From: a virus
IMG/VR virus record: IMGVR_UViG_3300044960_000076
Span: 1 to 26,307 of that record
DNA length: 26,307 bases
Strand: one strand, 5' to 3'
The position numbers and the translations under genes were made by a program. Below are positions 19,486 through 23,532 of the stretch, piece by piece. The notes beneath the pieces are model-generated. The model saw nothing but the letters and a program-made list of their open reading frames with translations. It made no database searches and had not been told where the DNA came from. Each line of letters opens with the position of its first letter. Position 1 is the first letter of the stretch.

Positions 19486-19502
19486 AGGTGCCTCCTTGCT
19501 TT

Positions 19503-19538
19503 GGTGAGGGAAGAGCCTAACTTGGCCCTTCCCCCACC
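19503..19538 (-). other. Strong 15-pair intergenic RNA hairpin
   Basis: On the - strand the arms GGTGGGGGAAGGGCC (19538-19524) and GGCTCTTCCCTCACC (19517-19503) pair over all 15 positions with two G-U pairs; the loop is AAGTTA. It lies 10-15 bases upstream of the MazG gene's ribosome site. There is no U-run after it, so a classic terminator is unlikely; RNA stabilisation, an RNase III site or translational control are possible. Confidence 0.65.
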
Positions 19539-19543
19539 TTGTT

Positions 19544-19555
19544 GCTGGCGCCAGC
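19544..19555. repeat. Perfect palindrome after a stop codon
   Basis: GCTGGCGCCAGC, a 12-base perfect palindrome that begins in the TAG stop of the SSB-like gene and precedes the 19503-19538 hairpin. It could bind a dimeric protein or add to the RNA structure. Confidence 0.6.
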
Positions 19556-22203: not shown

Positions 22204-22235
22204 GACTCCCTCCTTTCAGTTGCATAGTTGGGGGT

Positions 22236-22276
22236 GGGCCCCCACGCCAGCTACTAGAGCGTTGGCGTGAGGACCC
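22236..22276 (-). other. 16-position intergenic RNA hairpin
   Basis: - strand arms 22276-22261 (GGGTCCTCACGCCAAC) and 22251-22236 (GCTGGCGTGGGGGCCC) pair at 15 of 16 positions with two G-U pairs; the loop is 9 bases. Lies in the 86-base gap before the 21967-22203 gene, about 20 bases upstream of its ribosome site. No U-run follows, so not a classic terminator. Confidence 0.6.
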
Positions 22277-22289
22277 AGCCAGGAGAGCG

Positions 22290-22487
22290 TTAGCGTTTGT
22301 TGACGCTGAACACTCCCTTGAAGATGCCCTGGACGAGTTTCTTCACGTCTGCAGGATCAATCTTCTTCCCATACGCGGCTTCCATCTCACCCCACTCAGC
22401 CGCGGTGAAGGAGACATACCGCTTCTCAGCGGTTTTCTTCTCCTTCTTGTCTGCCTGAAGAGTTGCTAACACATCCCCTAATGCCAT
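22290..22487 (-). CDS. Small basic protein downstream of a pseudoknot-capable leader
   Basis: 65 residues from ATG 22487, chosen because AAGGAGG (22493-22499) is 5 bases upstream. A GTG at 22577 would extend it by 30 residues of low-complexity Ser/Gln/Gly sequence, overlapping the upstream stop by 4 bases, and cannot be excluded. Residues 10-22 are lysine-rich (ADKKEKKTAEKR); 24-65 predict helices with WGEMEAAY and VKKLVQGIFKGVF. Not recognised. The interleaved repeats directly upstream suggest its translation is regulated, perhaps by its own product. Confidence 0.7.
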   Translation of the reverse strand: MALGDVLATLQADKKEKKTAEKRYVSFTAAEWGEMEAAYGKKIDPADVKKLVQGIFKGVFSVNKR

Positions 22488-22499
22488 AGGAACCTCCTT

Positions 22500-22556
22500 A
22501 AGTGCGTCTGATTGAGTTTGGCCCAGGCTACCAGACGCACTTGAGGTAGCCTGGGC
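22500..22556 (-). promoter_or_regulatory. Interleaved inverted repeats: potential H-type RNA pseudoknot or two-state switch
   Basis: Two perfect inverted repeats interleave. Stem 1: 22521-22532 with 22545-22556, 12 bases (GCCCAGGCTACC / GGTAGCCTGGGC). Stem 2: 22500-22510 with 22532-22542, 11 bases (AAGTGCGTCTG / CAGACGCACTT). Read 5' to 3' on the - strand, the transcribed order gives stem 1 left, a 2-base loop, stem 2 left, stem 1 right, a 10-base loop (22520-22511), stem 2 right, then the AAGGAGG. One base (22532) is shared. Short first loop, no middle loop and longer third loop is the classic H-type topology. Alternatively the two hairpins are mutually exclusive. Stem 2 abuts the ribosome site, so translational control is likely. 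Confidence 0.75.
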
Positions 22557-22573
22557 TTGGCCGGACACCCGGC

Positions 22574-22750
22574 TCACGAGAAGAGGTCCTTAAAGACCTC
22601 CTCCACTGGTAAGGACGTATCTGTTGTAGACTTCTTGCTGGCTTTGCCTTGAGGCTTGTAGTCCCGCAAGGCAGGTATAGCAGAACGTCGCTCGCGCAGC
22701 TTTGCGATGGACTCTTTGATCTCTTCTAGACTCATCTCGCTATCGCTCAC
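22574..22750 (-). CDS. Small hypothetical charged protein
   Basis: 58 residues from GTG 22750, with AGGAGG 8 bases upstream; GTG 22759 is too close to that site and ATG 22735 is too far. Residues 5-25 are a charged helix (SLEEIKESIAKLRERR), 30-50 are Lys/Ser/Thr rich and probably disordered, and the end is PVEEVFKDLFS, an acidic-hydrophobic tail of a kind that may dock onto a partner. Not recognised. Confidence 0.65.
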   Translation of the reverse strand: MSDSEMSLEEIKESIAKLRERRSAIPALRDYKPQGKASKKSTTDTSLPVEEVFKDLFS

Positions 22751-22815
22751 TTCTCTCACCTCCTGCTAAATCGTTCACGGCAAGGTTTGTTAATGCAAAA
22801 GCTGTGCCGAGATGG

Positions 22816-23532
22816 CTAGGTAAGCAGTGCTTTGACAGCCTTGCCTTCTAGCGTCTTGGGTTGGTATTCTATTGCAAGAGCTTTGTTGGAGGCCAGTAGG
22901 ACTGTGATTATGTCCTCGAAGCACTCGGCTGAGGTTGAGGACAAATAGAACGCTTTGCCTCCAGATAACTTGGCGATCTTCTCGAATGCCTCCACAGTGT
23001 CTGGATGCCGCGCGGTGTAGAGCGCATAGATAGGACACCCCGCCAGCCGGCACTCATGGGCCTCGGTGTAACCTTCTGAGCCTTTGTGCCCTGGCGCATC
23101 TCCGATGAGGATGATTTGAGATGGGCCTTCATGAATGACCTCTTTGAGACCATCCCCAATCGACTCGGGAAAGTCTCCGCCGCCGGTGCAATAGACTGAT
23201 CCGACGAACTCCTTCAGGTAACCAGTGTTGTCAGACCATTCGCAAGCTTCTATCGGGTAGTTGTCGCACCTTACATCCCGATACCCCACCACTTTGATTT
23301 GGATGGGCACCGTTGATTGGTTCTTGATGCCGTCAATTACTCGGTTGAGAGTTTTGGTGGCCACCTCCCAGTATGGCCCCATAGAGCTGGTGCAGTCAAA
23401 CACTAGAGCGATGCGCTGGCGCCGACTCTCAAGAGCTTCCGCCAGCTCTCTCAGTTCGTCAAGATCATCCAACGAAGTTTCTCCAAACTCACCAAACTCG
23501 CTCACTTCCTTTTTTGGCTCTAGCTTGTCCAT
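22816..23532 (-). CDS. von Willebrand factor A domain protein
   Basis: 238 residues. An acidic N-terminal segment (8-36) precedes a vWA fold from about 38. MIDAS motif: Asp46-x-Thr48-x-Ser50 in LVFDCTSSMG; VVGYRDV (81-87); TGGGDFPES (116-124); and LIGDAPGHKG (142-151) with Asp145. YRD, GGGDxPE and GDAPxH are characteristic of the vWA subgroup found with alpha-kinases and in some bacterial operons. A metal-dependent protein-binding or scaffold role is inferred. No kinase is present in the window. Neighbours are a coiled-coil/J-like protein and a Zn-ribbon protein. AAGGAGGG precedes ATG. Confidence 0.85.
   Translation of the reverse strand: MDKLEPKKEVSEFGEFGETSLDDLDELRELAEALESRRQRIALVFDCTSSMGPYWEVATKTLNRVIDGIKNQSTVPIQIKVVGYRDVRCDNYPIEACEWSDNTGYLKEFVGSVYCTGGGDFPESIGDGLKEVIHEGPSQIILIGDAPGHKGSEGYTEAHECRLAGCPIYALYTARHPDTVEAFEKIAKLSGGKAFYLSSTSAECFEDIITVLLASNKALAIEYQPKTLEGKAVKALLT

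Follow-up and report, generated by a model that had tools for sequence, protein, structure and literature searches.

Do two long inverted repeats that cross each other in front of a ribosome binding site form an RNA structure, and does such a structure control the gene behind it? This question is raised by a 26-kb contig of an uncultured virus, podovirus-like by its relative MW202554.1 (the window, i.e. the whole stretch of 26,307 nucleotides analysed). An early operon on its - strand contains DNA polymerase parts, a Sak4-like protein, an exonuclease (PHROGs) and small genes. The crossing repeats sit in an 86-base gap separating two conserved early genes of 61 and 65 amino acids. A sequence-only reading had described them as a candidate H-type pseudoknot or RNA switch and had suggested control like that of T4 gene 32.

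Results

Crossing repeats between two early genes

On the - strand two perfect inverted repeats of 12 and 11 bases cross in the order a-b-a'-b' (22500-22556, Table 1). The 12-base stem pairs 22556-22545 with 22532-22521, the 11-base stem 22542-22532 with 22510-22500. Without its shared first G, a' reads GTAGCCTGGGC; this G is the last base of b and is present in a single copy. The lengths, the order and the single shared base given by the sequence-only reading were confirmed at these coordinates, as were loops of 2, 0 and 10 bases on the transcribed strand with H-type topology. The reported contact of the last strand with AAGGAGG was also found, b' ending at 22500 and the strong Shine-Dalgarno sequence (SD) beginning at 22499. 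The span of 22500-22573 given for the element is correct for the crossing repeats only up to 22556, whereas 22559-22573 forms a separate small hairpin. Both stems follow the H-type order S1-L1-S2-L2-S1'-L3-S2'. A repeat finder returned the 12-nt pair with 100% identity and the 11-nt pair inside a 15-nt pair of 93%, which reaches into the SD. Between the SD AAGGAGG and ATG 22487-22485 (- strand) lie the five bases TTCCT.

Table 1 Features of the locus and hairpin spacers of the related phages
Feature	Position	Strand	Remarks
Upstream conserved gene, 61 aa or shorter	22574..22759	-	From alignment; UGA 22576-22574, 17 nt before stem 1
Small separate hairpin GCCGG..CCGGC	22559..22573	-	Just 3' of the upstream stop codon; about -9.4 kcal/mol
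Stem 1, 5' strand (a)	22545..22556	-	DNA GCCCAGGCTACC, RNA GCCCAGGCUACC
ACCUC	22543..22547	-	In the alternative nested fold can pair with GAGGU (22496-22492) of the SD; cannot coexist with the pairs of stem 1 next to its loop
Loop 1	22544-22543	-	TC (RNA UC), 2 nt
Stem 2, 5' strand (b)	22532..22542	-	DNA AAGTGCGTCTG, RNA AAGUGCGUCUG
Stem 1, 3' strand (a')	22521..22532	-	DNA GGTAGCCTGGGC, RNA GGUAGCCUGGGC; G22532 common to b
Loop 3	22511..22520	-	DNA CAAACTCAAT, RNA CAAACUCAAU, 10 nt
Stem 2, 3' strand (b')	22500..22510	-	DNA CAGACGCACTT, RNA CAGACGCACUU
Shine-Dalgarno AAGGAGG	22493..22499	-	Directly abuts b'
65-aa conserved early protein P0001, presumed controlled gene	22290..22487	-	Function unassigned; homologues in four other phages
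Hairpin spacer after the 65-aa gene, window	22204-22289
Hairpin spacer after the 65-aa gene, L001	5202-5275
Hairpin spacer after the 65-aa gene, L010	6359-6482
Hairpin spacer after the 65-aa gene, L011	6466-6563
Hairpin spacer after the 65-aa gene, L025	39488-39554

The crossing repeats are real and far beyond chance. An exact search of the 26.3-kb window for crossing pairs with 8 bp or more in each stem returned this site alone, present on both strands by symmetry. With a simple stacking-plus-penalty scheme the pseudoknot scored -37.8. None of 4000 dinucleotide shuffles of the spacer reached this value (best shuffle -24.3), which bears out the earlier statement that two overlapping perfect stems are improbable by chance. 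When the window was scanned for pseudoknots together with three related contigs, the site ranked first among the four, on this strand and its complement; the best other site scored about -25. The order a-b-a'-b' would not be expected from one simple mutation, because a single inverted duplication would give a-b-b'-a'.

The genes on both sides have homologues in the same order in the four other phages. The start of P0001 at ATG 22487 is supported by these homologues, all of which begin with M[AG]L. P0001 is small and lysine-rich, with a predicted order of helix, extended stretch, helix and helix in a low-confidence model (pLDDT 65). Neither Pfam nor PHROG gave a match. The only matches listed in the structural search had Z values of 3.2 and 2.4, and no fold is claimed; sequence search against solved structures gave chance-level matches only. 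Diverged paralogues of the protein occur in three relatives (L018, L019 and L020, near 1501), so that these small phage proteins make up a family present in several copies, for which Pfam gave no match. The nearby gene at 22816-23532 had no PHROG match; MW202554.1 has a homologue of it with the annotation VWFA-domain protein, and it is conserved beside the locus in all four relatives.

In the 86-base spacer no promoter-like site and no terminator were called. Stem 1 is followed by CAAACUCAAU and not by the U run of an intrinsic terminator. The bases could instead be codons of a 95-aa form of the protein starting at GTG 22577, or of a frameshift fusion, and the structure would then be incidental. 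In the window this frame is uninterrupted, and GTG 22577 overlaps the UGA of the upstream gene, but the homologues start at ATG, the extension frame has stops in three of them (L001, L011 and L003) and the 30 extra residues are unconserved. Given the ATG starts and the upstream in-frame stops of the relatives, the bases are therefore not kept merely as codons of a longer protein, a case that the sequence-only reading had raised. Crossing perfect stems are, moreover, no coding feature, and we regard this explanation as extremely improbable. A fusion of the 61-aa and 65-aa genes by frameshifting was rejected: inspection by eye showed no slippery heptamer, the stop lies 17 nt before the structure, and L001 has a closed frame here.

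Predicted folds

In the nested minimum fold (-46.2 kcal/mol) stem 2 is lengthened by the pairing ACCUC:GAGGU, so that the SD is hidden; about 99% pairing was computed for its last four bases (GAGG) across the nested ensemble. For the pseudoknot together with the small upstream hairpin about -44 to -47 kcal/mol was calculated, varying with the A-U pairs opened, by a crude model with a pseudoknot penalty of 9.6 kcal/mol and errors of several kcal/mol. To cross the grooves, L3 is amply long with 10 nt, and the 2 nt of L1 are few for an S2 of 11 bp. Because of the short L1, one or two A-U pairs are probably open, and with L1 = 4 and S2 = 8 the crude model still predicts about -35 kcal/mol. The pseudoknot and the nested fold pairing the SD are thus predicted to be about level within error. 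The H-type topology and the intergenic position against the SD agree with the proposed pseudoknot or RNA switch; since the SD-sequestering fold is of similar energy, both remain live. That the other strand is sterically poor, as had been assumed, is less clear: a trimmed pseudoknot scores similarly there in the crude model.

Partial transcripts ending before the SD were computed to fold as stem 1 alone. Stem 1 would therefore form first, and the pseudoknot could be reached without melting it. If a longer segment is folded under the constraint that stem 1 is kept, the SD can pair with bases of the coding region behind it, so the 'on' state would not simply be a free SD.

Related loci

Viral scans yielded only three contigs and a protein search one phage record, and DNA similarity search of phages and plasmids gave no relatives. 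The sole match of a genome-collection scan, a Clostridium stretch, has stops inside and was taken as spurious.

A spacer of 79 bases with the same crossing architecture is present in L001, which at 72% protein identity is the closest relative. Its S1 pairs GUAGCUAGG with CCUAGCUAU (4942-4950/4962-4970, 9 bp) and its S2 GGGGCA with UGCCCU (4956-4961/4979-4984, 6 bp). The loops are CUUUA (L1, 5 nt), none (L2) and GUAUCUCA (L3, 8 nt), followed by AUCU (4 nt) and the SD AGGAGG. Each of these stems includes one G-U pair, whereas the stems of the window have none; the stem bases are replaced and not conserved in sequence. The automatic search ranked this pseudoknot first in its spacer. A pseudoknot of any kind as good was obtained with 76 of 4000 shuffles, and 18 of 4000 matched topology and SD distance as well, a proportion (0.5%) that is optimistic since the filter was set after seeing L001. 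For the L001 spacer the nested minimum free energy is ordinary (z -0.1).

Of the five homologous loci, three gave no pseudoknot. The 121-base spacer of L010 contains no convincing one (29 of 100 shuffles do as well), and the spacers of L011 (34 bases) and L003 (2 bases) are too short for it. Judged from these spacers, the element is lineage-restricted, and the 65-aa gene therefore does not need it. Covariation in relatives, which the sequence-only reading had looked to, gave a divided picture: L001 keeps the topology with different bases, but L010, L011 and L003 do not. The single case of L001 hints faintly at base replacement under a kept structure, and deep conservation is not seen.

Discussion

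The repeats probably act as an RNA element, and a function in translation is plausible. We consider the chances about even that the spacer is a lineage-restricted, cis-acting and possibly bistable leader RNA controlling translation of the 65-aa protein. The perfect non-random stems, the exact intergenic position, the contact with the SD, the look-alike in L001, the near-equal crude energies of both folds, the paired SD of the nested ensemble and the early folding of stem 1 count for this reading. Against it count the loci L010, L011 and L003 without the element, the dependence on one relative with a filter set afterwards, the ordinary nested energy of the L001 spacer, the SD pairing seen when stem 1 is forced and the errors of the energies. 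Such a leader would act in cis within the early polycistronic message. During transcription a-a' would close first as a 12-bp hairpin. Once b' and the SD are made, b' would pair with the hairpin loop to a coaxially stacked H-type pseudoknot, in which the SD is left unpaired by the element (on). Alternatively, by refolding, b-b' together with ACCUC:GAGGU would hide the SD (off). A trigger, which may be a host factor, ribosome traffic or a phage protein, would shift the balance between both states in the cell. The boldest reading is a rapidly evolving RNA switch of the phage. Its long pseudoknot, formed during transcription, would rival a hairpin that hides the SD for the same strands, selection would act on topology and not on sequence, and an undescribed trigger would control a conserved early protein without assigned function; this we regard as rather unlikely.

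The leader of gene 32 in T4 and RB69 has, like the structure proposed here, an H-type pseudoknot in an intercistronic phage leader 5' of the SD and varies among relatives, being reportedly missing in RB49 (PMC535899). There the pseudoknot has about 28 nt, and behind it come more than 40 nt of RNA with less structure that include UUAAA/UAAA repeats and the ribosome binding site; the product is a single-stranded DNA-binding protein, SSB (PMC535899). In contrast, the element described here has 57 nt with stems of 12 and 11 bp and lies directly against the SD. UUAAA/UAAA repeats between pseudoknot and AUG are absent, as only AAGGAGGTTCCT separates b' from ATG. P0001 has no family match in the libraries searched (Pfam and PHROG gave none of any kind), no SSB similarity was found, and its low-confidence model is mostly helical. 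The proposed gene-32-like control by the own product is thus not supported, in view of the missing SSB similarity, the missing UUAAA repeats and the different position.

Translational riboswitches of the preQ1 classes and SAM-II have an H-type pseudoknot near or including the SD and alternative folds. The leader as proposed here would resemble them in both respects, but its gene is no known metabolic gene and conserved aptamer bases are lacking, the stems of the window and L001 being different. With Rfam no match at gathering was obtained in the window, and what matched near the site or in L001 did not exceed chance level; the covariance match to PreQ1-III reached 12 bits compared with a gathering score of 63. 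In the E. coli S15 and alpha operon leaders a bistable hairpin/pseudoknot overlaps the initiation region, as proposed here, but this locus has no ribosomal protein. By kind the element is a candidate phage leader pseudoknot; by family, none is described in the libraries searched. To our knowledge, few phage leader pseudoknots are proven and most searches need sequence conservation. If the element is real, such controls can persist as topology while the stem bases change. It would also offer a small bistable leader that makes a clear on/off prediction and is easy to test, and a first way into a conserved family of phage proteins without known function.

The strongest rival is a role in mRNA processing or stability, because the same operon carries other strong intercistronic hairpins. 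Long perfect helices between cistrons could be an exonuclease barrier or the substrate of a double-strand-specific nuclease, separating or protecting early operon messages, with secondary effects on the SD. Spacers with long hairpins just before an SD are found at 19486-19554 (z -4.8) and 22204-22289 (z -3.6), a strong hairpin of unrelated sequence follows the 65-aa gene in the spacers of 5 of 5 phages, and perfect pairing without G-U suits a duplex substrate. A plain hairpin would suffice for this purpose, however; a crossing second stem up to the SD is unneeded, and the look-alike stems of L001 are short (9 and 6 bp). We hold this role to be somewhat unlikely.

Blocking of the SD by a protein bound to the leader pseudoknot, either P0001 itself or another early phage protein, as with T4 gp32, would fit the leader position. 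It would also fit a small, lysine-rich product whose low-confidence model (pLDDT 65) could suit a ribbon-helix-helix nucleic-acid binder. In front of the homologues in L011 and L003 the spacers are too short to hold an operator of this kind, and family match, usable structural match and UUAAA repeats are all missing, which makes an autogenous operator quite doubtful. Perfect symmetry without G-U is also expected of DNA sites, and the repeats are by nature on both strands; they could be sites of a DNA-binding or recombination protein or a replication-related cruciform. The spacer without promoter-like site or terminator, the contact with the SD at H-type spacing and the L001 repeats, with the same crossing order, different bases and a G-U pair in each stem, argue against a function at the DNA level, and we find it very unlikely.

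Further hairpins and repeats

The hairpin in the spacer after the 65-aa gene (z -2.7 to -7.0 in the five phages, Table 1) is conserved in its position. Its flank in the window, CUCUCCU, could form pairs with the SD of the next gene. The hairpin at 19486-19554 has 15 bp (GGUGGGGGAAGGGCC/GGCUCUUCCCUCACC) and lies shortly 5' of the SD of a 127-aa ORF. An intergenic hairpin with z -5.8 was detected in MW202554.1 (L025) at 35600-35681. Two 22-nt direct repeats, 82% alike and 28 nt apart, follow the 65-aa gene of the window at 22247-22296.
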